64,000 nucleotides of DNA from Rhynchopus sp. YZ270_cl-10 (Eukaryota; Euglenozoa; Diplonemea; Diplonemida; Diplonemidae). The stretch is taken from contig OZ037838.1 in NCBI GenBank assembly GCA_964035575.1, positions 1,302,001 through 1,366,000 of the forward strand. Reading direction: 5' to 3'. Of this stretch, positions 1 to 41,094 are shown piece after piece. The position numbers and the translations under genes were made by a program. Each line of letters begins with the position of its first letter. Position 1 is the first letter of the stretch. The notes below the pieces were generated by a model. That model was not told where the DNA came from, made no database searches, and saw only the letters and a list, made by a program, of their open reading frames with translations.

Positions 1-501
1 ACCCAGTGGGGCGGGAGCATGGCAGTGTCGGACTGTGGTGGGTGGGTGCTCACGTGCTCCAAAAGTGAGAACAACGCACGTCTGTGGGATGTGAACACAG
101 GTGAAGCTGTGGCATGTGTGCCTATGTCAAGGTGCGTTGTAGCGCTTTCAAGGTCTGCCTCTGTCTTTGCTGTGGGGGTCGATGTGGATGGGGTACAGAG
201 TGTGCAGCTCTACGACTGGAGTGGTGCGGCTCTTCAGAACGCTACTATCTCTGGAAGTGTCTGTGGCGTGCAATTCACCCAGTGTGGGAAGTACCTTGTG
301 GCCCGTTCGCAAGATTATGCTGATAAAGGCTCATACGCAAAGCTGCACCAGTATGATGTGGCGACCATGTCCTGTGTACTTGTGATCCCGGACGTCAGCA
401 ATCAGCCATTTGCGATATCACCGTGTTCGTGTGTGGTTGTGTTCGTATCCTCCGACGAGACCACTATTAGGACAAGACATCTGTACCCCCACAACGAGTG
501 A
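1..501 (+). CDS. UBLP family copy 1, C-terminal part (cut by window edge)
   Basis: The frame is already open at base 1 (codons ACC CAG TGG), so the ATG at 19 is internal and the gene starts upstream of the window. About 166 residues of the WD40-like half are present: the RLWDVNTGEA block, the LYDWSGAAL block, an FTQCGKYL block, QYDVATMSC and the tail RHLYPHNE. The loop between the LYDW and CGKYL blocks (QNATISGSV) and the LVIPDV segment recur almost unchanged only in copy 15, 40 kb away. The 3' spacer is also shared with copy 15. The family is described under the copy at 923. Function unknown. Confidence 0.85.
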   Translation, partial: TQWGGSMAVSDCGGWVLTCSKSENNARLWDVNTGEAVACVPMSRCVVALSRSASVFAVGVDVDGVQSVQLYDWSGAALQNATISGSVCGVQFTQCGKYLVARSQDYADKGSYAKLHQYDVATMSCVLVIPDVSNQPFAISPCSCVVVFVSSDETTIRTRHLYPHNE

Positions 502-922
502 TGTTCATGCTTTGGCACCATGTGAAATGGGTGTGGTGACTTACCCCCTTGTATTCCGTGGAGGCGGAAGAACTGGTGTCGTCAACAGAAGCCTGCGTCT
601 TGCCACCACACACCTATCCAGTGATGGCAGATCTGCATCCACGAGCAAGACACCGCAGACCACCTTGTCGCAGCCGAACACCACATCGCCTCCCGCCAGG
701 CCGCCCTCGTCGCCCTCCACACAGAGATGTGCGCCATGGTGAGACCCATTCATGTCCTCACTGCTGTTTATTTTTGTCCTGTACCCCAGAACTTCTACCC
801 CAACCCAAAACAACGACCCCCATCCCTCGTCCCCTCTTTCCACGTGTGCACCCTCTCAGCTCCTTCAACTGTCCACCCAACAGAACATTCAATTGCATCA
901 CACCAACACAGCTCTTGAAACA
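502..922. other. Spacer between copies 1 and 2; duplicated downstream of copy 15
   Basis: Bases 502-760 are almost identical to 41095-41355. Inside, 624-735 has codon-like GC-rich structure; one frame reads IHEQDTADHLVAAEHH and continues as a helix-like stretch with no start codon, so it may be a relict exon. The last 80 bases form leader type A (CTCAGCTCCTTCAACTG, then CA-rich sequence), which also precedes copy 5. The pyrimidine-rich tract with CAG/ACAG just before the ATG could be a splice acceptor. No promoter motif was recognised. Confidence 0.6.
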
Positions 923-2056
923 ATGATGGATGTGACCTTTGTGCTGGAAGAGTCAGGCGTGACTGCGACAGTGGAGGTGCCGTGCGGGGCAGACGCTGCA
1001 GCGGCAAAGGAGGTTGCGTGCACGGCGCTTGCTGTCTCGCCTGCGTCTGTCGAGATGCGCATCGGCACGCAGGTGCTGGAGGGGACGTGCCGTCTGCAGG
1101 ACACTGCGTTTGGTGCAGGGGTGCAGGTTGTGCTTGCCCGCCCTCGCTTTGCTGACATCAAGTGTCCTGCTGAGTACAGCGCGGATGGGGGCGCGACGTA
1201 TATGTCGCTGTCACGTTGTGGAACGGTCTGCGTTTTTGTGCACTGGAATGGGCTTGTTGAAGGTTTCGACACAGAAACCTTCGACACTGTCTTCTCGTTT
1301 GGAGTGAGAGGTATAGAATGCGCTTTGATGGTACGCGGTGCGCCTGTCATCTCGGTTCACGGTCCACCTGCCATCTCACGGTGCATGACACGCTGCTACC
1401 TGGCGTGTGCGCATCACCTTCTCGAGGTTGCGCTTCCGGGTGGGGAGGTGCTCCGCAAAGTCGAAGGCTCCTCGATGGCAGTGTTCGCGTGTGGCAGTGT
1501 TGTTGTCTCAAAGGGCAAAGACGGCGTCTCTGTGTATGACGAAGACCTGACGTTGCTCCGCTTTCTCTCGCACGAAGGGTGTGAGGGTGAGGCAGTATCG
1601 GACTGTGGTGGGTGGGTGATCACCTCCTCCCTCACTGAGATGAAGGTACGTCTGTGGGATGTGAACACAGGTGAAGCTGTGGCATGTGTGCCTGAGGGTG
1701 ACTGGTGTTCAGTGGCGCTTTCACGGTCTGCCTCTGTCTTTGCTGTGGGGGTGGACAACACCGTGCACCTCTATGACTGGAGTGGTGCGGCTCTTCGCAG
1801 TATTGATGTAGGTGGGGTTGTCGTTGTCATGCAGTTCACCCCGTCTGGGAAGTACCTTGTGGTGGGGATACATGATGACGAAGATCCTCATTATACACAC
1901 CTGCACCAGTATGATGTGGCGACCATGTCTTGTGTGAGTGAACTGCAATGCTCATTTGAGTCATTTGCGATATCGCCATGTTCACGTGTTGTTGTGGTAT
2001 GGGAAGCAGATACCAACATTGCAACAAGACATCTGTACCCATACAACAGTCAGTGA
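923..2056 (+). CDS. UBLP family copy 2: ubiquitin-like head plus WD40-like beta-propeller
   Basis: 377 aa from the first ATG of an ATG ATG pair, the start used by most copies. Family layout: residues 1-75 follow a ubiquitin-like order (strand DVTFVLEES, strand TATVEVP, helix AAAKEVACTALAV, strand VEMRIGTQVLE, strand GVQVVLARP) without a terminal GG, so conjugation is unlikely. Then a CPAEY linker and WD40-like strands marked by LSxCG, FDTETF, PAISxCKTRCY, VALPGGEVLRKV, SVYDEDLTLLR, AVSDCGGWVI, RLWDVNTGEAV, LYDWSGAAL, CGKYLVV, QYDVATMSC and AISPCSRVVV. There is no signal peptide or membrane segment, so it is probably cytosolic. Oddities here: CGAD instead of CEAD, FGAG instead of FDAG, and a partial internal repeat (RGAPVIS then HGPPAIS) before the CMTRCYL block. 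Fold assignment is inferred; function unknown. Confidence 0.88.
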   Translation: MMDVTFVLEESGVTATVEVPCGADAAAAKEVACTALAVSPASVEMRIGTQVLEGTCRLQDTAFGAGVQVVLARPRFADIKCPAEYSADGGATYMSLSRCGTVCVFVHWNGLVEGFDTETFDTVFSFGVRGIECALMVRGAPVISVHGPPAISRCMTRCYLACAHHLLEVALPGGEVLRKVEGSSMAVFACGSVVVSKGKDGVSVYDEDLTLLRFLSHEGCEGEAVSDCGGWVITSSLTEMKVRLWDVNTGEAVACVPEGDWCSVALSRSASVFAVGVDNTVHLYDWSGAALRSIDVGGVVVVMQFTPSGKYLVVGIHDDEDPHYTHLHQYDVATMSCVSELQCSFESFAISPCSRVVVVWEADTNIATRHLYPYNSQ

Positions 2057-2941: not shown

Positions 2942-4051
2942 ATGGATGTGACCTTTGTGCTGGAAGAGTCAGGCGTGACTGCGACAGTGGAGGTGCCGTG
3001 CGAGGCGGACGCTGCAGCGGCAAAGGAGGTTGCGTGCACGGCGCTTGCTGTCTCGCCTGCGTCTGTCGAGATGCGCATCGGCACGCAGGTGCTGGAGGGG
3101 ACGTGCCGTCTGCAGGACACTGCGTTTGATTCAGGGGTGCAGGTTGTGCTTGCCCGCCGCTTTGCCAACATCAAGTGTCCTGCTGAGTATCGTGTACAGA
3201 GGGTGCAGAACTTATCGCTGTCTCGTTGTGGAACACTCTGTGTCTATGGTTGTTATGGTACGTTTGACAATGATTATGTTGCACATGTTGATGGCTTCGA
3301 CACAGAAACCTTCAACACTGCCTTCGCTTGTACTCTAGACAGTGGCTGCTTCATGTACGGTCCGCCTACCCTCTCACAGTGCAAAACATGCTGCTACGTG
3401 CCGTGTGGGGATGATTTACGCAAGGTTGCGCTTCCTGGTGGGCAGGTGCTCCGCAAACTCGACGTCCGCTCATACCTAGTATTTGCATGTGGCGGTGTTG
3501 TTGTCTCCAAAGGCAAAAACGGTCTCTCTGTGTATGACGAAGACCTGACGTTGCTCCGCACTCTCTCGCACAAGGATTGCAAGGACATGGCAGTGTCGGA
3601 CTGTGGTGGGTGGGTGATCACCTCCTCCTACAGTGAGAAGAACGCACGTCTGTGGGATGTGAACACAGGGGAAGCTGTAGCATGTGTGCCTGCGGGGGGC
3701 AAATACCAAGTGGCGCTTTCACGGCATGCCGCTGTCTTTGCTGTGGGAGGTGCTGACAGCATCCACCTCTATGACTGGGGAGGTACTGAAGTTCACAGGT
3801 CGATCGGAGGTGGGGAGGTGGGGTGCACGAAACTGCAGTTCACCCCGTGTGGGAAGTACGTTGTGTCTGCGACGCTAGCCGGCAACATAGAACATACACT
3901 GCACCAGTACGATGTGGCGACCATGTCCTGTGTGCGCGTGATCCCGAACGGCAGCTCTCTGTTTGCAATATCGCCGTGTTCACGTGTGGTTGTGTTTAGG
4001 AGTTTTGACGGCAACACCATTGAGACGAGACTTCTGTACCCACGTGAGTGA
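2942..4051 (+). CDS. UBLP family copy 3
   Basis: 369 aa from ATG 2942; an upstream in-frame TTG is ignored because every other copy begins at this ATG. The head belongs to the DAAAAKE subtype shared with copies 2 and 4 only. The Pro-Arg pair after VVLAR is missing (RRFANIK). Variable blocks DYVAHV, FMYGPP and DLRKVALPGG are shared with copy 15, 37 kb downstream, while the C-terminal half differs from copy 15. The tail is RLLYPRE. Intact reading frame. Role unknown, as for the rest of the family. Confidence 0.87.
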   Translation: MDVTFVLEESGVTATVEVPCEADAAAAKEVACTALAVSPASVEMRIGTQVLEGTCRLQDTAFDSGVQVVLARRFANIKCPAEYRVQRVQNLSLSRCGTLCVYGCYGTFDNDYVAHVDGFDTETFNTAFACTLDSGCFMYGPPTLSQCKTCCYVPCGDDLRKVALPGGQVLRKLDVRSYLVFACGGVVVSKGKNGLSVYDEDLTLLRTLSHKDCKDMAVSDCGGWVITSSYSEKNARLWDVNTGEAVACVPAGGKYQVALSRHAAVFAVGGADSIHLYDWGGTEVHRSIGGGEVGCTKLQFTPCGKYVVSATLAGNIEHTLHQYDVATMSCVRVIPNGSSLFAISPCSRVVVFRSFDGNTIETRLLYPRE

Positions 4052-5491: not shown

Positions 5492-6614
5492 ATGGATGTG
5501 ACCTTTGTGCTGGAAGAGTCAGGCGTGACTGCGACAGTGGAGGTGCCGTGCGAGGCGGACGCTGCAGCGGCAAAGGAGGTTGCGTGCACGGCGCTTGCTG
5601 TCTCGCCTGCGTCTGTCGAGATGCGCATCGGCACGCAGGTGCTGGAGGGGACGTGCCGTCTGCAGGACACTGCGTTTGATGCAGGGGTGCAGGTTGTGCT
5701 TGCCCGCCCTCGCTTTGCCGACATCAAGTGTCCTGCAGAATATAATGTGCAGCAGTGTCGCTGGGTAGAGATGGACTGGCGCGTTGGTGGTACTGCGTTT
5801 TCGGAGTACGTATCGCTGTCGCGTTGTGGCGCACTCTGCCTCTACAGTGATGGCAGGCATGTTGGTGGCTTCGACACAGAAACCTTTCTCAATGTCTTCG
5901 ACCTCACAATGGCCTATCGTCCGTACCGTGCGCCTGCCATCTCGCAGTGCAAGACACGCTGTTACATGGCTTGTAGGGAACACTTAAGCGAAGTTGCGCT
6001 TCCGGGTGGGGAGGTGCTCCGCAAAGTTGACGGCATCTCGCGCTCAGTGTACGCGTGTGGCAGTGTTGTCGTCTCCCTGAGCCTACACGGGGTCTCTGTG
6101 TATGACGAAGACCTGACGTTGCTCCGCTCTCTCTCGCATTTGCAGTGCAGGAAAGCGGCAGTATCGGACTGTGGTGGGTGGGTGATCACCTGCTCCCTTC
6201 AGTGAGAAGAACGCACGTCTGTGGGATGTGAACACAGGTGAAGCTGTGGCATGTGTGCCTATCGAGGAGGAATACCACGAAGTAGCGCTTTCACGGTCTG
6301 CCTCTGTCTTTGCTGTGGGGGACTCTCACGAAGTACGGCTCTATGACTGGAGAGGTGAGGCTCTTCGCAGTGTTGATGTGGATGGGGATATCGACGACAT
6401 GCACTTCACACCATGTGGAAAGTACCTTGTGGTCAATGTTTTCAGTCGCCGAAGTTCTAAGCTGCAACAGTATGATGTGGCGACCCTTTCCTGTGTGCAT
6501 GTACTCACGGAAATAGGACGTATCGGGTTTGTGATATCGCCCTGTTCACGTGTCGTTGTGTTTCCGTCCAATAATCGTAAAAACATTGTGACACGCCACC
6601 TGTACCCAGAATAG
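5492..6614 (+). pseudogene. UBLP family copy 4, one frameshift
   Basis: The first frame runs 5492-6205 and stops in the block VITCSLQ. The remaining half of the protein continues in another frame to 6614 (FSEKNARLWDVNTGEAV and onward, tail RHLYPE). Compared with copy 9 (CTGCTCCTTCAGTGAG), this copy has one extra C in the run at 6195-6197, which fully explains the shift. Everything else is intact, so this is either a very young pseudogene, a programmed slip (no evidence for one) or a sequencing/assembly error. The head is of the DAAAAKE subtype and contains a long first loop (WVEMDWRVGGTAF). Confidence 0.8.
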
Positions 6615-6875: not shown

Positions 6876-8012
6876 ATGATGGATGTGACCTTTGTGCTGG
6901 AGGAGTCCGGCGTGACTGCGACAGTGGAGGTGCCGTGCGAGGCGGACGTTGCAGCGGCAAAGGAGGTTGCGTGCACGGCGCTTGCTGTCTCGCCTGCGTC
7001 TGTCGAGATGCGCATCGGCACGCAGGTGCTGGAGGGGACGTGCCGTCTGCAGGACACTGCGTTTGATTCAGGGGTGCAGGTTGTGCTTGCCCGCCGCTTG
7101 GCCGACATCAAGTGTCCTGCTGAGTACAGTATTGAGGTGCCACCTGGAACGCATCGGATGTATCTACATCGCTTTTCGCTGTCTCCTTGTGGAGCACTCT
7201 GCCTCTGTACACATCAGCAAGGCTATGTCACCGGCCTCGATACAGAAACCTTCAGCCCTGCCTTCAAGTTCAAAGTAGACTTTGAGGTGCGCGGTGAGCC
7301 TGCCATCTCACGGTGCAAGACACGCTGCTACCTGGCGTGCAAGGAAGTCCTTCTCGATGTTGCGCTTCCGGGTGGGGAAGTGCTCCGTAAAGTCGACGGC
7401 ATCTCGCGCTCAGTGTTCGCGTGTGGCGGTGTTGTTGTCTCCCAAGGCGAAAGAAGCGTCTCTGTGTATGACGAAGACCTGACGTTGCTCCGCTCTCTCT
7501 CGCTCGAAGGGTGTGCGGACATAGCAGTGTCGGACTGTGGTGGGTGGGTGATGACCTCCTCCAACAAGGAGAACAACGTACGTCTGTGGGATGTGAACAC
7601 AGGTGAAGCTGTTGCATGTGTACCGTTGGGGGAGCGGCGCTGTAGAGTGGTGGCGCTTTTACGGTCTGCCTCTGTCTTTGCTGTGGGGCAGAAAGAAGTC
7701 CGGCTCTATGATTGGAGTGGTGAGGCTCTTCGCAGTATTGATGTGGATGGGTCTCTCGAGTCTGTGCAGTTCACCCCGTGTGGGAAGTACCTTGTGGTAT
7801 GTGGAGAGGTCCTGGTTCCTGTTGAGGGTGAATACGGAACTGAGTATGATGAGGATGGTTACCTGCACCAGTATGATGTGGCGACCATGTCCTGTGTGCG
7901 TGTAATATCTCAAGAGTCATATGTGTCCTTTGCGATATCGCCGTGTTCACGCGTTGTTGTGGGTATGCAGCCAGATGGTGTCATTGTGACGAGATATCTG
8001 TACCGTGAGTGA
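6876..8012 (+). CDS. UBLP family copy 5
   Basis: 378 aa from the ATG ATG pair. First copy of the DVAAAKE head subtype that all later copies carry (copy 6 has KV). It has FDSG and lacks the Pro-Arg pair (ARRLADIK). It belongs to the sub-group with the loop GYVTGLDTETFSPAFKFKVD, shared with copies 9, 12 and 14. It carries the longest acidic loop between CGKYLVV and LHQYDV (EVLVPVEGEYGTEYDEDGY). The tail is RYLYRE. Intact. Confidence 0.88.
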   Translation: MMDVTFVLEESGVTATVEVPCEADVAAAKEVACTALAVSPASVEMRIGTQVLEGTCRLQDTAFDSGVQVVLARRLADIKCPAEYSIEVPPGTHRMYLHRFSLSPCGALCLCTHQQGYVTGLDTETFSPAFKFKVDFEVRGEPAISRCKTRCYLACKEVLLDVALPGGEVLRKVDGISRSVFACGGVVVSQGERSVSVYDEDLTLLRSLSLEGCADIAVSDCGGWVMTSSNKENNVRLWDVNTGEAVACVPLGERRCRVVALLRSASVFAVGQKEVRLYDWSGEALRSIDVDGSLESVQFTPCGKYLVVCGEVLVPVEGEYGTEYDEDGYLHQYDVATMSCVRVISQESYVSFAISPCSRVVVGMQPDGVIVTRYLYRE

Positions 8013-8366: not shown

Positions 8367-9488
8367 ATGATGGATGTGACCTTTGTGCTGGAAGAGTCAG
8401 GCGTGACTGCGACAGTGGAGGTGCCGTGCGAGGCGAAGGTTGCAGCGGCAAAGGAGGTTGCGTGCACGGCGCTTGCTGTCTCGCCTGCGTCTGTCGAGAT
8501 GCGCATCGGCACGCAGGTGCTGGAGGGGACGTGCCGTCTGCAGGACACTGCGTTTGATTCAGGGGTGCAGGTTGTGCTTGCCTGCCGCTTTGCCGACGCC
8601 AAGTGTCCTGCTGAGTACACTGCAGCGCGTGCGACAGACTTGTTACTGTCGCGTTGTGGAGCGCTCTGCGTTTATAATTTTAATTCGCACGGGAGTGTGC
8701 ATGTTGGCGGCTTCGACACAGAAACCTTCGACACTATCTTCTCCTTTACAGTGGGCAATGTCGTGCACGGTGCGCCTGCCATCTCGCAGTGCAAGACACG
8801 CTGCTACCTGGCGTGTTGGAACGCAGGACTTCTCGAGGTTGCGCTTCCGGGTGGGGAGGTGCTCCGCAAAGTCGACAGCACCTCGTACTCAGTGTACGCG
8901 TGTGGCGGTGTTGTTGTCTCCGATGACAAAGACGGCGTCTCTGTGTATGACGAAGACTTGACGTTGCTCCGCTCTCTCTCGCACGAAGCGTGCGAGGACA
9001 TGGCAGTGTCGGACTGTGGTGGGTGGGTGATCACCTCCTCCAACAAGGAGAGGAACGTACGTCTGTGGGATGTGAACACAGGTGAATCTGTTGCATGTGT
9101 GCCGATGGAGGGGTGGTGTGGGGTGGCGCTTTCACGTTCTGCCTCTGTCTTTGCTGTGGATTGCTATACCACCGTGCACCTCTATGACTGGAGTGGTGCG
9201 GCTCTTGGCAGCTTTGATGTGGGTGGCAGTGTCAAGGGCATGCAGTTCACCCAGTGTGGGAAGTACCTTGTGGTGAGGGTTCGGGTTGTGCAACCTTTGG
9301 ATGATGGTGATTGCATTGTAGAGCGGCACCTGCACCAGTATGATGTGGCGACCATGTCCTGTGTGCATGAGATACCGCAAAGGTTTGTCGAGTCATTTGC
9401 GATGTCGCCGTGTTCACGTGTCGTTATGGTTTTGCAATCCAATGGCGTCATTGTAACGAGACATCTATACCCACACAACAGTGAGTGA
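8367..9488 (+). CDS. UBLP family copy 6
   Basis: 373 aa from the ATG ATG pair. The head has CEAKVAAAKE (Asp to Lys) and ACRFADAKC, small departures from an otherwise invariant domain. The middle carries the HVGGFDTETFDT block also seen in copies 4, 7 and 15. The loop before LHQYDV is long and mixed-charge (VVQPLDDGDCIVERH). The tail is RHLYPHNSE, as in copy 13. Intact. Confidence 0.88.
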   Translation: MMDVTFVLEESGVTATVEVPCEAKVAAAKEVACTALAVSPASVEMRIGTQVLEGTCRLQDTAFDSGVQVVLACRFADAKCPAEYTAARATDLLLSRCGALCVYNFNSHGSVHVGGFDTETFDTIFSFTVGNVVHGAPAISQCKTRCYLACWNAGLLEVALPGGEVLRKVDSTSYSVYACGGVVVSDDKDGVSVYDEDLTLLRSLSHEACEDMAVSDCGGWVITSSNKERNVRLWDVNTGESVACVPMEGWCGVALSRSASVFAVDCYTTVHLYDWSGAALGSFDVGGSVKGMQFTQCGKYLVVRVRVVQPLDDGDCIVERHLHQYDVATMSCVHEIPQRFVESFAMSPCSRVVMVLQSNGVIVTRHLYPHNSE

Positions 9489-9903: not shown

Positions 9904-10983
9904 ATGGATGTGACCTTTGTGCTGGAAGAGTCAGGCGTGACTGCGACAGTGGAGGTGCCGTGCGAGGCGGACGTTGCAGCGGCAAAGGAGGTTGCGTGCA
10001 CGGCGCTTGCTGTCTCGCCTGCGTCTGTCGAGATGCGCATCGGCACGCAGGTGCTGGAGGGGACGTGCCGTCTGCAGGACACTGCGTTTGATGCAGGGGT
10101 GCAGGTTGTGCTTGCCCGCCCTCGCTTTGCCGACATCAAGTGTCCTGCTGAGTACAGTGCAACAGATGTGGAAAACTTGTCGCTGTCGCGTTGTGGAACG
10201 CTCTGCATCTATGTTCATCATAGGCATGTTGGCGGCTTCGACACAGAAACCTTCGACACTGTCTTCTCATTTGAAGTGGACACCAAAGTGATCCGTGGGC
10301 CTGCCATCTCGCAGTGCAAGACACGCTGCTACCTGCCATGTGGGGACTACCTACTCGAGGTTGCGCTTCCTGGTGGGGAGGTGCTCCGCAAAGTCGACGG
10401 CACCTCGATAGAAGTGTTCGCATGTGGCGATGTTGTTCTCTCCCAGGGCTTAGAAGGCGTGTCTGTGTATGACGAAGACATGACGTTGCTCCGCTCTCTC
10501 GCGCACGAGTTGTGCAGGAATGTAGCAGTGTCGCCCTGTGCTGAGTGGGTGATCACCTCCTCCTACAAGGAGAAGGAGGCACGTCTGTGGGATGTGAACA
10601 CAGGTGAAGCTGTTGCATGTGTACCTGCGCAGGGGTGGTGTAAAGTGGCGCTTTCACGGTATGCTTCTGTCTTTGCTGTGGAGGGGGTGGGAAATACCGT
10701 GCAGCTCTATGATTGGAGTGGTGCGGCTCTTCGCAGTGTTGATGTGGATGAGACAATCCGGGGCATGCAGTTCACACCATGTGGGAAGTACCTTGTGGTA
10801 AAGACTACATATGCGGGGCACCAGTATGATGTGGCGACCATGTCCTGTGTGCGTGTGTTCCCTGTCGTAGCTTTCTACTCTTCCTTTGCGATATCGCCGT
10901 GTTCACGTGTGGTTGTGTTCAAAGCAGCAAGAGGTGACACACAATGTGACGTTCTTTTCACTAGACATCTGTACCCCTACTGA
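9904..10983 (+). CDS. UBLP family copy 7
   Basis: 359 aa, among the shortest copies, because the loop between CGKYLVV and HQYDVATMSC is only a few residues (KTTYAG). It has VSPCAEWVI in place of VSDCGGWVI, as copy 9 has VSPSGGWVI. The spacer after it is a near copy of the spacer after copy 12, yet its variable loops differ completely from those of copy 12. The tail is RHLYPY. Intact. Confidence 0.88.
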   Translation: MDVTFVLEESGVTATVEVPCEADVAAAKEVACTALAVSPASVEMRIGTQVLEGTCRLQDTAFDAGVQVVLARPRFADIKCPAEYSATDVENLSLSRCGTLCIYVHHRHVGGFDTETFDTVFSFEVDTKVIRGPAISQCKTRCYLPCGDYLLEVALPGGEVLRKVDGTSIEVFACGDVVLSQGLEGVSVYDEDMTLLRSLAHELCRNVAVSPCAEWVITSSYKEKEARLWDVNTGEAVACVPAQGWCKVALSRYASVFAVEGVGNTVQLYDWSGAALRSVDVDETIRGMQFTPCGKYLVVKTTYAGHQYDVATMSCVRVFPVVAFYSSFAISPCSRVVVFKAARGDTQCDVLFTRHLYPY

Positions 10984-11240: not shown

Positions 11241-12464
11241 AAAATGAAGGGCAAATTGCGATAACACGTATACTTTTTGTTTCCATTTGCGATAACACGT
11301 ACACAAAAAGTATACGTGTTATCGCGAAAAAGTGTACGTGTTATCGCGAAAAGTGGTCAAAAAAGTATACGTGTTATCGCGAACAAAAATGTACGTGTTT
11401 CCTTCTTCTAAGGTGCTCGCTCTCCATACCTAGACCCTCGAATTTTTTTTTTGGGCCCCAAAAATGGCTAATTTCGACGATTTGAGGCCATTCAAAGCAA
11501 AATTTGGCACTTTTGAGCATCTGTAGGGGTCTAGAACGCGGTTGCGAGCACCCCGTTTTTTAGCGAAATATGTACGTGTTATCGCGAAAAGTGTTCAAAA
11601 AAATGTACGTGTGACATTCAGAAGACAGGGTCTGGTGGTAAATTTTGCGTATCCCTCTGTGGGTCACTCACACTTGCGGTCATGTGCCACTGCGTGGGTC
11701 TGGGAACCAGACTTACGTACTTAAGGTGCACGAAGACAGGGTCTGGTGGTAAATTTTGCGTAGTACTGCGACGTGGTACTGCGTGGGTCTGGGAATATGG
11801 GTACCTGGTACAGGATATTTGTTGTCAAAGACATCTTCCACCATGCATTGAGGAGGGTAAGACAGTGGTCGCAGTTTGTACTTGATAGCATTACAACATT
11901 TAACTTCTCCACGGGGGTCTTGGGCCGTTCATTCGGTTATACCTTGACTAGCGGAAGAGGCCTTTTTGGTCTCTAGAATATCCGGTATTCCCGAACGGAG
12001 GCACACTTTGTGTGTTACTACGACCTGGCAACTTCCAGCAGTAGGTTAAGTAATCTTTCTTGTAAATTGTTGGATCATTATCTCCTCAGTGCATGAATGC
12101 CCCACGTGACTGGACACTTTTGTGTTTGTCATGTGGAGCTGTGGTTGCTCTTTCACGACTTTTATCCTTGTACACAGTGTACCCAGTACCCAGTGCCCTG
12201 TCACGACTTTTTCCGTGACAAAAAGTTTGGTTTCCTTGACAAACCAGGTACCCAGGTACCTGGGTACCTGGGTACCTGGGTACCTGGGTACCTGGGTACC
12301 TGGGTACCTGGGTACCTGGGTACCTGGGTACCTGGGAAAACACGTACGTTTTTGTTCGCGAAAACACGTACACTTTTTCGCGATAACACGTATACTTTTT
12401 GTGTACGTGTTATCGCAAATCGAAAAAAAAAGTATACGTGTTATCGCAATTTACCCTAAAATGA
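11241..12464. mobile_element. 1.2-kb non-autonomous inverted-repeat DNA transposon with 7-bp target duplication
   Basis: The element spans 11248-12457. Its ends, AGGGCAAATTGCGATAACAC on the left and, on the opposite strand, AGGGTAAATTGCGATAACAC on the right, stay matched for about 97 bp with a handful of differences. AAAATGA directly flanks both sides (11241-11247 and 12458-12464). The duplicated spacer at 32508-32524 lacks the element and one AAAATGA, which is an empty site. Inside are further GTGTTATCGCG subterminal repeats, a duplicated segment (GAAGACAGGGTCTGGTGG at 11626 and 11731) and a GGTACCTG minisatellite. No transposase frame is visible, so it would need a transposase supplied elsewhere. 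Superfamily not assigned; 7-8 bp target duplications fit several. Confidence 0.85.
12244..12338. repeat. GGTACCTG minisatellite (8-bp unit, about 11 copies)
   Basis: Perfect 8-bp units in tandem. Each unit contains the palindrome GGTACC, and the left edge (CCAGGTACCCAGG) is inverted relative to the rest. It lies inside the transposon. The open frames crossing it (VPGYLGTW repeats) are a by-product of the repeat. Confidence 0.9.
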
Positions 12465-12956
12465 AAAAAGATGAAAAGTACAAAAGGGACATCCGACTTT
12501 AGTGGGAGGGATGGATGCGATCAACAAACAACAAACAACGAATAAATATAGAAGTATTTCATTTTTAGGGACACGCAATGTATAAAAGGAAGTTTCTGTC
12601 GCGATTGTATTTGAGAATGCTGTTGTTTCCTTTTGTACCCCTTTGGAAAAAGGCTTTTTACCTCTCTCCCACATAGACAGAGCAAGGGTGAAAAATAATC
12701 CATGTCAATGTGAATATTGGTGTGGATGCATCAATGCACAACAAAACCGATCATAAAGAAAGAGAAATAAGCATACTTTTCAGGTATTTTGACGATAACG
12801 ACCACACCACCCTTTACCTCTCTTTTTCACTTTTGCTCTGTTATAACCCTCTTCTGTTGGTGGAAGCTACAGACAACGATAACATCACACAAACACACAA
12901 AACAACCCACACCTCATCTCCTCCCAACAGAGGTGGAACAAGAAGAAGACAAAACA
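12465..12956. other. Spacer before copy 8, leader type C
   Basis: Bases 12475-12675 (GACATCCGACTTTAGTGGG through CCCTTTGGAAAAAGGC) match 32520-32717 before copy 13 almost base for base. Copy 8 then has an extra 200 bp. Leader type C follows: TTCTGTTGGTGGAAGC, a CACAAACACACAAAACAACC run, then CTCCTCCCAACAGAGGTGG and AGAAGACAAAACA. The TCCCAACAG sequence looks like a splice acceptor about 35 bp before the ATG. Confidence 0.55.
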
Positions 12957-28716: not shown

Positions 28717-29972
28717 ATGGATGTGACCTTTGTGCTGGAAGAATCAGGCGTGACTGCGACAGTGGAGGTGCCGTGCGAGGCGGACGTTGCAGCGGCAAAG
28801 GAGGTTGCGTGCACGGCGCTTGCTGTCTCGCCTGCGTCTGTCGAGATGCGCATCGGCACGCAGGTGCTGGAGGGGACGTGCCGTCTGCAGGACACTGCGT
28901 TTGATGCAGGGGTGCAGGTTGTGCTTGCCCGCCCTCGCTTGGCCGATATCAGGGTGGCGCGTTCCCCTGCAAGTGTCCTGCTGAGTACACATGCTTCGGA
29001 GTGTTTGAGCACCATATTTGCACATTCTCGTTGTCTCCTTGTGGAACGCTCTGTCTCTATTTCTTCCAAAGCCATTCAGCCTCGGACGGAAGGATATTCT
29101 TCTCCATCTTTGACACTGAAACCTTCGAGTTGGTGTTCAAGTTTGAAATCGACTACGGAGAGTATCGCGAGTGCAAACTAGGTAGAGCTGCCATCTCACG
29201 GTGCAAAACACGTTGCTACATCCCGTATGATTGCTACCCCCACAATAGTGGTTTTCTGCAGTGTGTTGCACTTCCGAGTGGAGAGGTGCTCCGCAAAGTT
29301 GAGCGCACCTCGAGAGCAGTGTTCGCATGTGGCGATGTTGTTCTCTCCGAAGGCGAAGACGGCGTCTCTGTGTATGACGAAGACCTGACGTTGCTCCGCT
29401 CTCTCTCGCACAAGCATTGTAGGCACGCGGCAGTGTCGCGGTGGGTGGGTGACCACCTACTCCAAGAAAGAGGACGACGTACGTCTGTGGGATGTGAACA
29501 CAGGCGAAACTGTGTCATGTACACAGGTGGAGTTGTGGTGTGGCCACTGGTGCATTGGGGTAGCGCTTTCGCGGTCTGCTTCTCTCTTTGCTACGGGGGT
29601 CTCTTTCGGAATACAGCTCTATGATTGGAGTGGTGCGGCTCTTCGCAGTGTCGATGTGGATGAGAGCATCCGGGGCATGCAGTTCACCCCGTGTGGGAAG
29701 TACCTTGTGGTCAGTATCCGAACGGTCAAGGTGGATGTTTTTCTGGAACCTACGGAAGATAGCACTGATGATGTGGATGACGATGATGATTGTTACGCTA
29801 TTGACTGACGGAACTCCGCCAGTACGATGTTGCAACCATGTCGTGTGTGCATGTGATACAAGAAGTCTGTGAGTCGTTTGAGATATCGCCGTGTTCACGT
29901 GTGGTTGTGTTTGCGGAGGTGGGGACAACCTTTGCTCTCCCCTGTTCACATCAAAACAAAGAGGGTCGGTAA
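28717..29972 (+). pseudogene. UBLP family copy 11, broken
   Basis: The head reads normally from ATG 28717 to about 28946. A 20-bp insertion near 28953 then shifts the frame. The middle (LSPCGTLCLYFF ... VYDEDLTLLRSL) continues in another frame to about 29430, where about 5 bp are missing in the VSDCGGW block. A third frame (VRLWDVNTGETVSC ... CGKYLVV) ends at 29808, and the last blocks (RQYDVATMSC, EISPCSRVVV) lie in a further frame to 29972, without the RHLYP-type tail. With three shifts it is a true pseudogene, unlike copy 4. It contains an unusually acidic loop (DDVDDDDD). It may still serve as a donor for conversion. Confidence 0.85.
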
Positions 29973-31096: not shown

Positions 31097-32236
31097 ATGA
31101 TGGATGTGACCTTTGTGCTGGAAGAGTCAGGCATGACTGCGACAGTGGAGGTGCCGTGCGAGGCGGACGTTGCAGCGGCAAAGGAGGTTGCGTGCACGGC
31201 GCTTGCTGTCTCGCCTGCGTCTGTCGAGATGCGCATCGGCACGCAGGTGCTGGAGGGGACATGCCGTCTGCAGGACACTGCGTTTGATGCAGGGGTGCAG
31301 GTTGTGCTTGCCCGCCCTCGCTTTGCCGACATCAAGTGTCCTGCTGAGTGCAGTGTAGAGGCGCCACCTGGAAGGACAACTGGTGGTCAGCGGATGAATC
31401 GATTAACGCTGTCACCTTGTGGAGCACTCTGCCTCTTTACACAGGAGGATGGCTATGTAACCGGCCTCGATACAGACACCTTCAGCCCTGCCTTCAGGTT
31501 CAAAGTAGACTTTGAGGGGTACGCTGTGCCTGCCATCTCACGGTGCAAGACACGCTGCTACCTGGTGTCCTGGGAAGGTCTGCACGAGTTTGCGCTTCCG
31601 GGTGGGGAGTTTCTCCGCAAAGTCGACGGCACCTCGTTCCAAGTGTTCGCCTGTGGCAGGGTTGTTGTCTCCCGTGGCGAAGACGGGGTCTCTGTGTATG
31701 ACGAAGACCTGACGTTGCTCCACACTCTCTCGCACGAAGGGTGTGGGTGTGTGGCAGTGTCGGACTGTGGTGGGTGGGTGATCACCTCCTCCTACAAGGA
31801 GAGGAACGCACGTCTGTGGGATGTGAACACAGGTGAAGCTGTGGCATGTGTGCCTGCGGATGGGGGCATCGTGGCGCTGTCACGGTCTGCCTCTATCTTT
31901 GCCGTGGAGTGCTCTCTGGCTGAGAAAGCGCAGCTCTATGACTGGAGTGGGGCGGCTCTTGGCAGCTTTGAAAAGGAGGAGTCTCGCGTATGTGCCGTGC
32001 AGTTCACTCCATGTGGGAAGTACGTCGTCGTTGGGTTTGATAACAATGATGTTCGATATTGTGGAGAGTATACTCTGCACCAGTATGATGTGGCGACCAT
32101 GTCCTGTGTGCGTTCGATACAGGACAGCAAAGGTGTATTTGCGATCTCGCCGTGTTCACGTGTGGTTGTGTCCAAGGCAGCAGGAGGTGACGCAGGAGGC
32201 GACGTCCTTGTGACACAACATCTGTACCCCTACTGA
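31097..32236 (+). CDS. UBLP family copy 12
   Basis: 379 aa, the longest intact copy. Head substitution GMTATVEV. A long first loop (EAPPGRTTGGQRMNRL) and the FTQEDGYVTGLDTDTFSPAF block shared with copy 9. A short tandem duplication near the end (AAGGDAGGDVLV versus AGGDVLV in copy 9) shows ongoing loop-length change. The tail is QHLYPY. The 3' spacer pairs with that of copy 7. Confidence 0.88.
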   Translation: MMDVTFVLEESGMTATVEVPCEADVAAAKEVACTALAVSPASVEMRIGTQVLEGTCRLQDTAFDAGVQVVLARPRFADIKCPAECSVEAPPGRTTGGQRMNRLTLSPCGALCLFTQEDGYVTGLDTDTFSPAFRFKVDFEGYAVPAISRCKTRCYLVSWEGLHEFALPGGEFLRKVDGTSFQVFACGRVVVSRGEDGVSVYDEDLTLLHTLSHEGCGCVAVSDCGGWVITSSYKERNARLWDVNTGEAVACVPADGGIVALSRSASIFAVECSLAEKAQLYDWSGAALGSFEKEESRVCAVQFTPCGKYVVVGFDNNDVRYCGEYTLHQYDVATMSCVRSIQDSKGVFAISPCSRVVVSKAAGGDAGGDVLVTQHLYPY

Positions 32237-32779: not shown

Positions 32780-33844
32780 ATGGATGTGACCTTTGTGCTG
32801 GAAGAGTCAGGCGTGACTGCGACAGTGGAGGTGCCGTGCGAGGCGGACGTTGCAGCGGCAAAGGAGGTTGCGTGCACGGCGCTTGCTGTCTCGCCTGCGT
32901 CTGTCGAGATGCGCATCGGCACGCAGGTGCTGGAGGGGACGTGCCGTCTGCAGGACACTGCGTTTGATGCAGGGGTGCAGGTTGTGCTTGCCTGTCCTCG
33001 CTTGGCCGACATCAAGTGTCCTGCTCAGTACACTGCAACGCATGTGGGACCCTTGTCACTGTCGCCTTGTGGAACGCTCTGCGTCTATAGTAGCAGGGAT
33101 GGGCATTTTGATGGTTTCGACACAGAAACCTTCGACACTGTCTTCTCGTTCATACTGGACACTCTAGTGTCCGGTCTGCCTGCCATCTTACAGTGCAAGA
33201 CACGCTGCTACTTGGCGTGTGAGAATTGCCTTCTCGAGGTTGCGCTTCCTGGTGGGGAGGTGCTCCGCAAAGTTGACGGCACCTCGAACGCAGTGTTCAC
33301 GTGTGGCGGTGTTGTTGTCTCGAAGGGCGAAGACGGCGTCTCTGTGTATGACGAAGACCTCACGTTGCTCCGCTCTCTCTCGCACAAAGGGTGCACGACC
33401 ACGGTAGTGTCTGACTGTGGTGAGTGGGTGATCACCTCCTCCCTCAGTGATCAGAAGTCCCGTCTGTGGGATGTGAACACAGGTGAAGCTGTGGCATGTG
33501 TGCCTTCGGGGTGGTTGCCTAGAGTGGCGCTTTCACGGTCTGCCTCTGTCTTTGCTGTGGGGCAGGGTGAAGTCCACCTCTATGATTGGAGTGGTGCGGC
33601 TCTCTGCAGTGTTGATGTGCGTGGGGATATCCAGGGCATGCAGTTCACCCCGTGTGGGAAGTACCTTGTGGTAAGGAATCTAAACGAGCTGCACCAGTAT
33701 GATGTGGCGACCATGTCCTGTGTGCATGTGATACCGCATAGGGAGGTTATGTCCTTTGCAATATCGCCGTGTTCACGTGTTGTGGTTTTGCAACGAGATC
33801 GCGTCATTGTGACGAGGCATCTGTACCCACACAACAGTGAGTGA
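32780..33844 (+). CDS. UBLP family copy 13
   Basis: 354 aa, the shortest intact copy; the loop before LHQYDV is minimal (RNLNE). Head end ACPRLADIKCPAQYT. Substitutions within usually fixed blocks: PAILQC, VFTCGG, VVSDCGEWVI, SDQKSRLWDV. The tail is RHLYPHNSE, as in copy 6, and a copy 6-like 3' spacer follows, whereas its 5' spacer is of the copy 8 type. Intact. Confidence 0.88.
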   Translation: MDVTFVLEESGVTATVEVPCEADVAAAKEVACTALAVSPASVEMRIGTQVLEGTCRLQDTAFDAGVQVVLACPRLADIKCPAQYTATHVGPLSLSPCGTLCVYSSRDGHFDGFDTETFDTVFSFILDTLVSGLPAILQCKTRCYLACENCLLEVALPGGEVLRKVDGTSNAVFTCGGVVVSKGEDGVSVYDEDLTLLRSLSHKGCTTTVVSDCGEWVITSSLSDQKSRLWDVNTGEAVACVPSGWLPRVALSRSASVFAVGQGEVHLYDWSGAALCSVDVRGDIQGMQFTPCGKYLVVRNLNELHQYDVATMSCVHVIPHREVMSFAISPCSRVVVLQRDRVIVTRHLYPHNSE

Positions 33845-34368: not shown

Positions 34369-35481
34369 ATGATGGATGTGACCTTTGTGCTGGAAGAGTC
34401 AGGCGTGACTGCGACAGTGGAAGTGCCGTGCGAGGCGGACGTTGCAGCGGCAAAGGAGGTTGCGTGCACGGCGCTTGCTGTCTCGCCTGCGTCTGTCGAG
34501 ATGCGCATCGGCACGCAGGTGCTGGAAGGGACGTGCCGTCTGCAGGACACTGCGTTTGATGCAGGAGTGCAGGTTGTGCTTGCCCGCCCTCGCTTTGCCA
34601 ACATCAAGTGTCCTGCTGAGTACACTGTAGGTGTAGAGGTGATACCTGGAATGCATGAAGGGAGTGTATATGAATTTTCGCTGTCTCCTTGTGGAGCACT
34701 CTGCCTCTTTGCACAGGAGGAAGGCAATGTGACCGTCCTCGATACAGAAACCTTCAGCCCTGCCTTCAAGTTCAAAGTAGACATTGTGGTGTGCGGTCCT
34801 CCCGCCATCTCACGGTGCAAGACACGCTGCTACATGGCGAGTAGGAATTGTCTTGCCAAGGTTGCGCTTCCGGGTGGGGAGGTGCTCCGCAAAGTCGATG
34901 GCAACTCGTACGCAGTATTCGCGTGTGGCGGTGTTGTTGTCTCCCAAGGTGACGACGGTGTCTCTGTGTATGACGAAGACCTGACGTTGCTCCGCTTTCT
35001 CTCGCATAAACGGTGCAGGGACGTGGCAGTGTCGGACTGTGGTGGGTGGGTGATCACCTCCTCCAACAAGGAGAAGAACGCACGTCTGTGGGATGTGAAC
35101 ACAGGTGAAGCTGTGGCATGTGTGCCTGCTAATAGGATCGTGTCGCTTTCACGATCTGCCTCAGTCTTTGCTGTGGTGTGTAACGAAGTGCAGCTCTATG
35201 ACTGGAGTGGTGCGGCTCTTCGCAGCTTTGCAAATGCAGGTCAAAAAATTTCTGGCCTGCAGTTCACTCCCTCCGGGAAGTATCTCGTTGTACGGTTGAT
35301 GGATGTGGGTGCTGAAAAATATTCACTGCACCAGTATGATGTAGCGACCATGTCCTGTGTGCGTGTGTTACCGGCCTCCGACGACTGCGGCCAGTTTACG
35401 ATATCGCCGTGCTCACGTGTGGTACTATTTACGAACAGCAAACGAGACGCTATTGTGACGAGACATCTGCACCCCTACTGA
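34369..35481 (+). CDS. UBLP family copy 14
   Basis: 370 aa from an ATG ATG pair. Member of the SPAFKFKVD sub-group (EEGNVTVLDTETFSPAF). The head carries a few synonymous changes (GTGGAAGTGCC, CTGGAAGGGAC, GCAGGAGTGC) that other V-subtype heads lack. FTPSGKYLVV and FTISPCSRVVL deviate from the usual FTPCGKY and FAISPC. The tail is RHLHPY. Intact. Confidence 0.88.
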   Translation: MMDVTFVLEESGVTATVEVPCEADVAAAKEVACTALAVSPASVEMRIGTQVLEGTCRLQDTAFDAGVQVVLARPRFANIKCPAEYTVGVEVIPGMHEGSVYEFSLSPCGALCLFAQEEGNVTVLDTETFSPAFKFKVDIVVCGPPAISRCKTRCYMASRNCLAKVALPGGEVLRKVDGNSYAVFACGGVVVSQGDDGVSVYDEDLTLLRFLSHKRCRDVAVSDCGGWVITSSNKEKNARLWDVNTGEAVACVPANRIVSLSRSASVFAVVCNEVQLYDWSGAALRSFANAGQKISGLQFTPSGKYLVVRLMDVGAEKYSLHQYDVATMSCVRVLPASDDCGQFTISPCSRVVLFTNSKRDAIVTRHLHPY

Positions 35482-37943: not shown

Positions 37944-37975
37944 ATATAAAATGCTCTATGTGCTCAGAAACGGCA
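37895..37975. repeat. 81-bp direct repeat, right copy
   Basis: Second copy of the repeat at 35870-35950, same orientation, overlapping the end of the ankyrin frame. Confidence 0.85.
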
Positions 37976-37979
37976 TAAC

Positions 37980-38265
37980 TTGACATGTGTTTATGGAATT
38001 GGTCCCGTACCAAGGTGTCTTGTTCGGTGTGATTTGTGCTGAAATGGATAGATTCTGAGGGTAAATGCTGCAAGCGCTAGGTATTCCGTGACGCAAATAA
38101 ATTGACATGTGTTTGTGGATTTGGTCCCGTACCAAGGTGTCTTGTTGGATGTGATTTGTGCTGAAATGGATAGATTCTGAGGGTAAATGCTGCAAGCGCT
38201 AGGTATTCCGTGACGCAAATAAATTGACATGTGTTTGTGGAATTGGTCCCGTACCACAACCGCAA
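37980..38265. repeat. Second 122-bp satellite, about 2.3 units, diverged from the first
   Basis: TTGACATGTGTTT starts at 37980, 38102 and 38224, spacing 122. In both satellites the words AATTGGTC and TGCTGC are separated by exactly 61 bp, and the following stretch (AAGCGCTAGG versus GTGCGCTGGC) is similar, so the two arrays probably descend from one unit. Confidence 0.8.
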
Positions 38266-38280
38266 CCGCAATAATTAGGG

Positions 38281-39473
38281 AAGACGGCTGGCAAGCGGAA
38301 GAGAGATGAGAGTGATGCAGAGAGTGATGCAAAGAAGCAGAAGAAGTCCACTGCAAAGAATGCTGCTGCGAACAGCCAGGGGAAAGAGGAGTCTGCGAGT
38401 GGGGTGAAGCGCAGCAGTGATGACGGCGCCGATGCCGAGTGGCCCGGACTCGATATCGCTATGGCTGTGAGCAAGCAGGAGTCCGCAGGCCCGGCGGCAG
38501 GGACGACACGTGCCAGTGGGTTGCCACATGGAATACAGGATACGGGGTTTCTGCACCAGGAAGAACTTCTGGTGCACAACATGTAGAGGGTTCTCCCCAT
38601 TGCGCTGGACGATGTGGAAGATTCGACCTATGGATTCTCCTCTTTGCACATGGTGGGATACGAAACCTCCTTAGCAGTGTCGCCGCCAGGATTCCAGGCC
38701 AATGATGTGACGTCGCTCACCTCGCGCCCTATCGCAACTCGGGGAGACGGAGCATGTGCGTTGCATGCGTTGCTGGGGAGGCATTTGTTGCATGGCGAGA
38801 TTGTGTGCCGAGGTCTGCCAGATGTGACGGAGTCACAGCTCAGGGACAGGCCTTGGCATCATGCCAGGGTATATGCGTTGAGAGAGCTCGTCAAGCATAG
38901 TGGCTTGTTCTTGAGGTGTGCCCGACAGTTTTGCGGCTTGACTCCAAGCTCGATAAGCACTGTGCGGACGCGAAGGCCGAGTTGACCAGACTCGAGTCGC
39001 TACGAGGTGCTCTCATTTTTGAGCACGTCAAGGCTAGGGATTTGTGTGCTGAAGATTCGCAGTTCTTACTGGAAATGAGGACGCTGCATGAACTTCATCG
39101 CGAGATGAGTCACGCGGACTTCATGCCACACGTGAATCCGGATTTGTGCAATGAGGGTTACAAGACGTGTGACCACATTCGTGAACGTGTGCGCGACGTT
39201 GCTGTTGCTGATCTCTTCCCGCAGGATGAGGCTGTTCAGCGTCAGACAGATGTGATCACGCGCAAGCAGGAGGAGTTCTATTCCTCAAGAGGCGTACAGG
39301 AAGAAGTTCGTCAGTCGGGACTATTACCTGTCTGTGAAGAAATCGAGGCAGTGGCAGTGGCGTTCGGCAAAAGGGTGCTATTGGTCCACGAGGACACCAA
39401 TACTTGTGTTGTGATGAATCCGGAAGCGACCCATGTTCGCGTCATCCTGCAACAAGGGGACAGCAGCACCTGA
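38281..39473 (+). pseudogene. Broken OTU-like cysteine protease reading frame
   Basis: A basic, nuclear-signal-like start (KRKRDESDAESDAKKQKKS) is followed by a segment with RGDGACALHALLG, which fits the catalytic Asp-Gly-x-Cys box of OTU-type deubiquitinases. It ends in AVAFGKRVLLVHEDTNTC, which resembles the strand region late in such domains. The frame is interrupted at least twice. I cannot say whether it was a host gene or cargo of an element; it sits in a repeat island, so I treat it as a fossil. Assignment rests on one motif. Confidence 0.5.
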
Positions 39474-39963
39474 GAAGTGCCATTTCTCCCTGCTGAAACA
39501 AAACTCGCGCACGCCACCAAATTTCCAGTGTCCGCAGTGTCGCACCACTTATTTTTTTCGCATTTTGAGGGGGGGGAAATGCAAAATGAAAACAAAATTT
39601 TGGTAGATTCACAGAATTCAGATTTTTGCTAAGGTGCTGGCAGCTGGCCCCAAAAAAAAAAAAAAAATATTTTCCCCCCACATTTTTTGGTCCAGGGTCA
39701 CAAAAAAAAATCTCCGATTCCTGAAACCCCAAATCCTGGCGGAAACCCTGCCGGGGGGGGAAAAACAAAAAAAAAAAATTTTGTTTTTTTTGACAAAAAC
39801 GGCCAAAAACGACAAAATAGTTTTTACGACAAAAATTCCTTCACAAATTGTACAGGATGAGACCCCCTACTCCACTCAGGCGTAACGCAAACATCACAAA
39901 CACACAAAACAAAACTACACACCTCATCTCCCAACAGAGGTGGAACAAGAAGAAGACAAAACA
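39474..39963. other. Low-complexity spacer before copy 15
   Basis: Long A and T runs broken by CCCC/GGGG words, then a short leader type C (CATCTCCCAACAGAGGTGG). No gene. Confidence 0.45.
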
Positions 39964-41094
39964 ATGGATGTGACCTTTGTGCTGGAAGAGTCAGGCGTGA
40001 CTGCGACAGTGGAGGTGCCGTGCGAGGCGGACGTTGCAGCGGCAAAGGAGGTTGCGTGCACGGCGCTTGCTGTCTCGCCTGCGTCTGTCGAGATGCGCAT
40101 CGGCACGCAGGTGCTGGAGGGGGCGTGCCGTCTGCAGGACACTGCGTTTGATGCAGGGGTGCAGGTTGTGCTTGCCCGCCGCTTTGCCGACATCAAGTGT
40201 CCTGCTGAGTACAATGTTTGTGTGAGGGAGGCAGAATTTTTGTCGCTGTCTCCTTGTGGAGCACTCTGCCTCTATTGTTATGAGATATGTGCTGGTGGCG
40301 ATTACGTTGCGCATGTTGGTGGCTTCGACACAGAAACCTTCAACGCTTCATTAGCTTTTTCAGAAGGCAACAGCCTTTTCATGTACGGTCCGCCTGCCAT
40401 CTCACAGTGCAAGACGCGCTGCTACCTACCGTGTGGGCAAGACTTACGCAAGGTTGCGCTTCCTGGTGGGGAGGTGCTCCGCAAAGTTGAAGGCCGCTCG
40501 TACGCAGTGTTCGCGTGTGGTGGTGTTGTTGTCTCCCAAGGCAATGACGGAGTCTCTGTGTATGACGAAGACCTGACGTTGCTGCGTTCTATCTCACACA
40601 AGAGTTGTGAAGGCTTGGCAGTATCGGACTGTGGTGGGTGGGTGATCACCTCCTCGAAGGAGAGGAACGCACGTCTGTGGGATGTGAACACAGGTGAAGC
40701 TGTGGCATGTGTGCCTATGTCAAGGTACGCTGTAGCGCTGTCACGGTCTGCCTCTGTCTTTGCTGTGGTGGGCTCTGTGGCTGAGGCAGCGAGAGTGCAG
40801 CTCTACGACTGGAGTGGTGCGGCTCTTCAGAACGCCACTATATCTGGAAGTGTCTATGGCGTGCAATTCACCCACTGTGGGAAGTACCTTGTGGTCCATG
40901 TACAAAAGCGCACTGACGATGAAGCAGAATATGAGCTGCAACAGTATGATGTGGCGACCATGTCCTGTGTACTTGTGATCCCGGACGTCACCGGTGCGTC
41001 ATTTGCGATATCACCGTGTTCGCGTGTGGTTGTGTTCGTATCCTCCGACAGCACCAATATTTCGACAAGGCATCTGTACCCCCACAACGAGTGA
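39964..41094 (+). CDS. UBLP family copy 15, last of the array
   Basis: 376 aa. Head substitution EGACRLQD. It is a visible mosaic: the middle (DYVAHVGGFDTETFN, FMYGPPAIS, DLRKVALPGG) follows copy 3, while the end (PMSRYAVALSRSASV, LQNATISGSVYGVQFT, LVIPDV, RHLYPHNE) and the 3' spacer follow copy 1. Intact. Downstream the leader-like sequence continues, but the next gene is unrelated, so the family array ends here in this window. Confidence 0.88.
   Translation: MDVTFVLEESGVTATVEVPCEADVAAAKEVACTALAVSPASVEMRIGTQVLEGACRLQDTAFDAGVQVVLARRFADIKCPAEYNVCVREAEFLSLSPCGALCLYCYEICAGGDYVAHVGGFDTETFNASLAFSEGNSLFMYGPPAISQCKTRCYLPCGQDLRKVALPGGEVLRKVEGRSYAVFACGGVVVSQGNDGVSVYDEDLTLLRSISHKSCEGLAVSDCGGWVITSSKERNARLWDVNTGEAVACVPMSRYAVALSRSASVFAVVGSVAEAARVQLYDWSGAALQNATISGSVYGVQFTHCGKYLVVHVQKRTDDEAEYELQQYDVATMSCVLVIPDVTGASFAISPCSRVVVFVSSDSTNISTRHLYPHNE

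Follow-up and report, generated by a model that had tools for sequence, protein, structure and literature searches.

A large family of WD40-type propeller genes with a constant head as a candidate intracellular recognition repertoire in a diplonemid

We analyzed a stretch of 64,000 nucleotides from the diplonemid Rhynchopus sp. YZ270_cl-10 (contig OZ037838.1, positions 1,302,001 to 1,366,000), hereafter called the window. It corresponds to C6:1302001-1366000 in a genome of 152.4 Mb and 126 contigs, whose contig names (C1, C6, C21, etc.) are labels used within this genome. The window carries an array of genes for small proteins that join a nearly constant, probably ubiquitin-like head to a predicted beta-propeller (ubiquitin-like/beta-propeller proteins, or UBLPs). 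Our preferred reading, to which we give a probability of roughly 55% on the basis of sequence comparisons and a structural model, is that the UBLP genes form an intracellular recognition repertoire combining a fixed adaptor with a diversified binding face. This is the best reading because hundreds of small genes repeat one plan, a handle that stays constant joined to a face that is diversified, beside similar proteins that bear effectors. The variable face would bind targets that themselves vary; molecules of intracellular parasites, of viruses or of non-self cells are the most plausible ones. The head would be the shared handle that passes the bound target to one common partner, which could be a signalling scaffold or belong to a ubiquitin or proteasome route.

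A tblastn search with one copy as query identified 15 UBLP copies, all on the plus strand, between bases 1 and 41094 of the window. Twelve are intact (single open frames of 354-378 amino acids), two are frame-broken and one is cut by the window edge. The 15 same-strand copies described by a first-pass annotation of this DNA are therefore present, and the family proved far larger genome-wide. Indeed, a 27-base head pattern (at most three mismatches) was found at 471 sites of the genome and a 23-base propeller pattern (at most two mismatches) at 453 sites. Neither pattern had any site when reversed, which rules out chance, and the two counts suggest a family of about 450-470 members. Most of the UBLP places listed are on C6, where they span about 196 kb to 1.98 Mb; the others listed are on C1, C3, C5, C9, C11, C21, C22, C25, C31, C54, C58, C63, C77, C83 and C91. 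Among the best 150 heads listed, a selection that favors well-preserved heads, 137 lie within open frames of at least 345 amino acids and 13 in shorter frames (hand count). A protein search further returned 422 proteins of the family, in records seemingly from another assembly. The UBLP family thus extends far beyond the window, which is one slice of it.

The structure of one intact copy (copy 13, positions 32780-33844 of the window, plus strand, delimited by tblastn) was predicted using AlphaFold2, with a mean predicted local distance difference test score (pLDDT) of 77 and a predicted template modelling score of 0.73. Over residues 83-347 (positions 33026-33820), the block-mean pLDDT ranged from 68 to 97 and was mostly 80-97. 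DSSP assigned 26 strands of at least three residues from residue 92 to residue 347; a short strand assigned by hand (134-137) and the strand 83-85 bring the count to 28. The latter is read as the fourth strand of blade 7, which closes the propeller (velcro closure). The back part of the UBLPs is, with confidence, predicted to be a WD40-type seven-bladed beta-propeller made of four-stranded blades. The model was built from an alignment of 62 proteins chosen from the best 120 of the 422 family members (71-82% identity to the modelled copy). The Pfam WD40 family was matched at E 0.01 by 27 of these 62 members, and four copies scanned singly scored 29.2, 27.6, 21.7 and 16.7 bits (gathering score: 27 bits). 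The 25 Pfam families listed for the 62 members at this threshold are propeller families or isolated weak matches. A strongly hydrophobic stretch is absent in 58 of the 62, which suggests that UBLP proteins are probably cytoplasmic.

We mapped the variability of the 62 proteins on this model, the top face being defined by the D-A and B-C loops and the bottom face by the A-B and C-D loops. The 14 top loops presented a mean column entropy of 2.38 bits (loop means 1.41-3.05) and 13 of them differ in length, whereas the 13 bottom loops presented a mean of 0.23 bits (0.00-0.83) and none differs in length (P = 2e-19; Mann-Whitney test on residues that are not independent). The strands were intermediate (mean of 0.80 bits). 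A comparison using fixed WD40 windows gave values of 0.27 for D-A, 0.56 for strand A, 0.54 for B-C, 0.09 for A-B and 0.07 for C-D; such windows fit the UBLP blades poorly, so the face result rests on the loops defined by the model. On this model, UBLP variability sits mainly on one face of the propeller. The first-pass annotation had pictured a propeller behind an almost invariant head, with loops of differing length and sequence set between blocks that stay fixed, and had named the lack of a propeller and an even spread of variability as outcomes that would refute it; the alignment and the predicted structure agree with its picture on the head, the loops and the propeller, and place the variability mainly on one face.

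To estimate selection, the Nei-Gojobori method was applied to 32 intact copies that are distinct from one another, of which the window provided 12 and other loci 20; broken, edge-cut and duplicate copies were excluded. The ratio of nonsynonymous to synonymous substitutions (dN/dS) was 1.33 in the top loops (95%: 1.20-1.56), compared to 0.31 in the bottom loops, 0.64 in the strands and 0.50 in the head, which has very few changes. Top loops of equal length gave 1.36 (1.14-1.60), and requiring in addition a minimum nucleotide identity of 50, 67 or 80% gave 1.59, 1.93 and 1.94, respectively, with every interval above 1. At 67% identity, the contrast is between 1.93 (1.53-2.49) in the top loops and 0.30 in the bottom loops. 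Since the ratio stays above 1 under stricter identity, misalignment is an unlikely cause. The sets of 14 loops are all different among the 32 copies. These results suggest that the top face of the propeller is under positive selection, the outcome of a check on the loops that the first-pass annotation had proposed. Alternatively, the family could have been recently amplified, with loops drifting under relaxed constraint, heads kept alike by gene conversion and no role in recognition. Homogenized heads, the two broken copies among the 15 of the window and a synonymous divergence (dS) that is also raised in the loops (0.546) speak for such drift, but it accounts poorly for a top-loop dN/dS that climbs from 1.36 to 1.94 with alignment certainty, for the constraint on the bottom loops (0.31) and for the many listed heads found in long open frames, even in a list that favors good heads. 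We consider relaxed drift improbable.

The constancy of the head (residues 1-71; positions 32780-32992 in copy 13) extends to its DNA. Its mean column entropy is 0.087 bits across the 62 proteins, 48 of its 71 codons are identical across all 32 copies, and its dS is 0.025 relative to 0.16-0.55 in the parts of the propeller. More than one codon is used for 10 of its 16 amino acids, so the low dS is not readily explained by protein constraint or codon bias. Among the leaders (the 100 bases 5' of the start codon) there are five shared classes and three singletons, and the propeller distance is nearly the same within and between leader classes (0.202 and 0.210, respectively). Over 496 pairs of copies, distances were correlated at 0.06 between leader and propeller, -0.10 between head and propeller and 0.01 between leader and head. 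Leader, head and propeller therefore assort independently in the 32 copies. Together with the uniformity of the head, this points to the head as the place through which copies exchange sequence, by gene conversion or crossing-over. Of the identical tracts of 75 bases or more among the 496 pairs, ten lie inside the propeller and 467 begin in the head. New specificities would then arise when genes are duplicated, exchange sequence through their near-identical heads in this way and come under selection on their loops.

The relationship of the head to ubiquitin was approached through divergent head-plus-WD40 cousins encoded on C31, C45 and C57, whose heads were recognized by eye. At E up to 10, a profile of the UBLP head and four of these cousins matched 263 PDB sequences, the best 60 of which are by name ubiquitin, its fusions or derivatives, except one Uba1-labelled chain. 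Single-ubiquitin chains were matched at E 2e-4 to 2e-2; the values for polyubiquitin are far lower because repeats add up. PF00240 was matched by two of the five heads, both from cousins (best E 0.0023), and hhalign gave a probability of 67% between the head family and residues 1-44 of ubiquitin. A full-length cousin search recognized two proteins with a ubiquitin-like (UBL) domain and WD40 among the best 120 of 552 matches listed; a head-only search with one cousin found only that cousin itself. The matches to ubiquitin suggest, by way of the divergent cousins, that the UBLP head is probably ubiquitin-like. The head lacks the Gly-Gly of conjugated ubiquitin-like modifiers: none was found from residue 61 to the end of the junction in the 12 intact window copies, and four of the 12 present a Gly-Gly further on, within the first 30 residues of the propeller. 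The five heads together matched 10 families at E up to 10, and PF08154, the NLE-type UBL domain of the Rsa4/Ytm1 family, is not one of them.

A ubiquitin-like head raises the possibility that UBLPs act as receptors that bring substrates to a ubiquitin-type machinery. The head would dock on a ligase or the proteasome, and the variable face would choose which substrates, cellular or foreign and changing over time, are degraded. Such a role has been proposed for F-box and BTB adaptor families. The ubiquitin-like signal in the head family, the diversified top face and a conserved bottom face that is free for a constant partner would all suit this role. However, F-box, BTB, U-box, RING and UBA domains are absent among the families listed for the 62 members, the WDxR motif of DDB1-binding WD40 (DCAF/DWD) proteins occurs in none of the 62, and the fold family is the sole pointer to a ubiquitin route. 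We regard this alternative as unlikely.

Several observations weigh against the reading of UBLPs as a recognition repertoire with a fixed adaptor. First, the UBLP head alone matched no ubiquitin-like family or structure in profile searches, and its AlphaFold2 model in copy 13 (block-mean pLDDT of 29-44, with a beta-beta-alpha start) is not usable; the ubiquitin-like head named by the first-pass annotation is supported indirectly, through the profile that includes the cousins. Second, no ligase, NTPase or other effector domain is found among the 25 Pfam families listed for the 62 members. Third, the partition between faces is imperfect: strands A4 (1.73 bits) and A7 (1.59 bits) exceed the two least variable top loops, and some length changes are aligned inside the ends of strands bordering top loops. 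In addition, the D-A/B-C bias may be partly generic to WD40 proteins, since the sole control, one pair of ordinary WD40 paralogues of the same genome, gave 0.51/0.29 for the top and 0.14/0.43 for the bottom. Moreover, dN/dS was obtained on recombining paralogues by a counting method rather than by codon models. Finally, blade-to-blade shuffling within the propeller is weakly supported: split-half correlations averaged 0.49 within blades and ranged from 0.15 to 0.42 between blades, with blades 3 and 4 being uninformative.

Other WD40 families of the same genome vary in a similar manner. Many of the top WD40 matches genome-wide fall in frames of about 1600-2000 amino acids. In one example (locus L052, 1-5232), a scan of the first 1200 residues identified ankyrin repeats, pentapeptide repeats, WD40 and an ART domain (PF01129, which scored 23.3 bits against a cut-off of 22.3); a P-loop region lying between these domains is STAND-like by eye. 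A NACHT profile searched over the genome gave seven matches, none of them on C21, so the STAND-like label of this region is one given by eye only. A 196-residue query containing the ART domain yielded 111 genome matches, of which 83 are full-length at 94-100% identity; 44 of these 83 are on C21, and genes of this kind also occur on C3, C5, C76 and other contigs. The genome therefore encodes about 100 ank-ART-P-loop-pentapeptide-WD40 proteins (~1750 amino acids) in which the effector part hardly varies and the WD40 variation is biased to loops, an NLR-like repertoire. In three members, WD40 differences were 0.48 for D-A, 0.50 for B-C and 0.40 for strand A, and 0.17 for A-B and 0.06 for C-D. Four of the 20 UBLP clusters listed off C6 have an ART gene within 10 kb, where 0.23 are expected (binomial P = 8e-5), with both lists being incomplete and the cluster cut self-chosen. 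Another family, on C47 (loci L001, L002, L008 and L038), shows by eye an apparent signal peptide, WD40, a proline/threonine-rich linker and membrane spans; three of its genes gave 0.29 for D-A, 0.34 for B-C and 0.25 for strand A versus 0.08 for A-B and 0.12 for C-D.

These parallels allow a more tentative scheme, which we find possible but on balance doubtful: a tiered intracellular immune repertoire made of about 450 UBLP detectors, about 100 ART/P-loop/WD40 executors and a set of WD40 proteins that are secreted or in membranes. All tiers would vary at corresponding propeller loops, and the common head of the detectors would be an adaptor as well as the hub of a recombination by which leaders and binding faces are reassorted. 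Instead of detecting parasites, UBLPs might serve self/non-self recognition in the cell during mating or fusion, as in fungal heterokaryon incompatibility. Cell fusion is not known in this organism, which argues against such a role, and the large parallel ART/P-loop/WD40 family argues for it. The selection on the top of the WD40 propeller of fungal hnwd genes resembles the one described here (PMC2873952), but these genes encode STAND NTPases whereas no NTPase family is among those listed for the 62 UBLP members. We consider a mating or fusion role quite unlikely relative to the recognition repertoire that we favor.

In addition to copy 13, the window contains eleven intact copies, all delimited by tblastn on the plus strand: copies 2 (926-2056), 3 (2942-4051), 5 (6879-8012), 6 (8370-9488), 7 (9904-10983; the query of the genome search), 8 (12957-14057), 9 (25590-26714), 10 (27029-28144), 12 (31100-32236), 14 (34372-35481) and 15 (39964-41094). 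The three other copies, on the same strand, are incomplete or broken. Copy 1 (1-501) is limited to its 3' part because the window start cuts the gene (tblastn match 16-492; open frame 1-501). Copy 4 (5492-6614) was recovered as two tblastn pieces in different frames, the frame being broken near 6198-6211, and copy 11 (28717-29912) as three pieces, with the head in one frame and the propeller pieces in others. Between copies 7 and 8, a short tandem repeat (12097-12502) is open in two frames and its translation repeats PGYLGTWV.

The array is not pure, as UBLP copies are interspersed with other genes, among them those of an amidohydrolase, a U-box protein and an EF-hand phosphatase. The U-box protein (19266-19913; PF04564, E 2.7e-10) lies amid UBLP copies and has a hydrophobic N-terminal stretch by eye. 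Further along the window, positions 46038-47201 encode an HROB-like homologous recombination OB-fold protein (PF15072, E 2.1e-11). An OTU-like fragment (38587-39473) is frame-broken, with a DGxC motif seen by eye and no Pfam match for either piece, and is perhaps the cargo of a mobile element. We rejected it as a partner gene, since its 25 genome matches are mostly off C6; besides the window's own fragment and its pieces, four are on C6, and five lie in frames of more than 3000 amino acids. The presence of such a repeated fragment amid the copies could indicate that UBLP genes are passengers of a mobile element, or that their number was inflated by misassembly. We find this highly improbable: the 32 copies compared are all different, copies are embedded among other genes, and the family also occurs in the protein records seemingly of another assembly.

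The listed copies of C6 are all on the minus strand left of 663 kb and all on the plus strand right of 729 kb. In the strand-switch region itself (C6:663000-729000), locus L030 contains simple repeats (1-1126) and locus L033 a repetitive stretch. Euglenozoan genes are ordinarily arranged with shared polarity, and we rejected the polarity of the array as a special feature because the other identified genes of the window are on the plus strand and the genome contains spliced-leader repeats. The minus strand of the window has 17 frames of 150 amino acids or more, and ten of them were scanned with Pfam and gave no match. A 19-base euglenozoan spliced-leader pattern had 739 genome matches with at most one mismatch, many in tandem, and its control had none. 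The 'Euglenozoa 14' consensus corresponds to the diplonemid spliced leader. One repeat of the genome, which carries AACCAACGATTTCTAAAGCTACAGTTTCTGTACTTCATTG followed by GT, is near this consensus as given in PMC3795323. The repeats thus mark the genome as euglenozoan and probably diplonemid. A pyrimidine tract and AG, as expected of a spliced-leader acceptor site, precede 31 of the 32 copies, and likewise occur in 26 of 32 shuffled leaders. Rfam gave no match, either on the window or on a spliced-leader repeat.

Animals, plants and fungi are known to possess large repertoires of receptors that selection has shaped. A euglenozoan recognition repertoire of such size was not found in a limited search of the open-access literature, and the main text of the Diplonema papillatum nuclear genome paper contains neither 'WD40' nor 'ubiquitin' (PMC10161547). 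The first-pass annotation had stated that no described family shares this plan. This was too strong given the Rsa4/Ytm1 plan and the hypervariable WD40 repertoires of fungi, while the combination and its scale did not appear in our narrow search. Rsa4 and Ytm1 also join a UBL domain to a WD40 propeller, as conserved assembly factors that form no repertoire. In Rsa4/NLE1 and Ytm1/WDR12, which act in 60S ribosome assembly, the UBL domain is bound by the MIDAS domain of Rea1/Mdn1 (PMC6624252). The NLE domain, in contrast, is not listed for the five UBLP-type heads.

Expanded F-box families, like UBLPs, couple a constant module of the ubiquitin system to a fast-evolving target-binding domain, but the UBLP module is a probable ubiquitin-like fold instead of an F-box. 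Within the same genome, the ank-ART-P-loop-pentapeptide-WD40 proteins share with UBLPs a near-constant part and a WD40 region varying most around the D-A and B-C loops, and are sometimes their neighbors; they differ in size, copy number and the possession of an ART domain and P-loop region. UBLPs are small proteins whose face can be defined loop by loop in hundreds of natural variants, which makes binding specificity testable, as are evolution by recombination via the shared head and the link between recognition and a ubiquitin-like fold.

In fungi, hypervariable WD40 repertoires with selection on the propeller top are known (PMC2873952). Those of the HNWD/NACHT-WD40 genes (het-d, het-e and het-r; NOD-like receptors) resemble UBLPs in the positive selection on top residues of WD40 and in the exchange between members of the gene family (PMC2873952). 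They differ by their NTPase, none being among the families listed for the 62 UBLP members at E 0.01. Diversity also takes another form: in UBLPs it lies in the loops of each of the seven blades and includes differences in length, in HNWD it is a variable number of near-identical repeats, and the homogenized part is the head in the former and the repeats in the latter. By analogy, UBLPs would belong with WD40-based recognition repertoires, a known kind.

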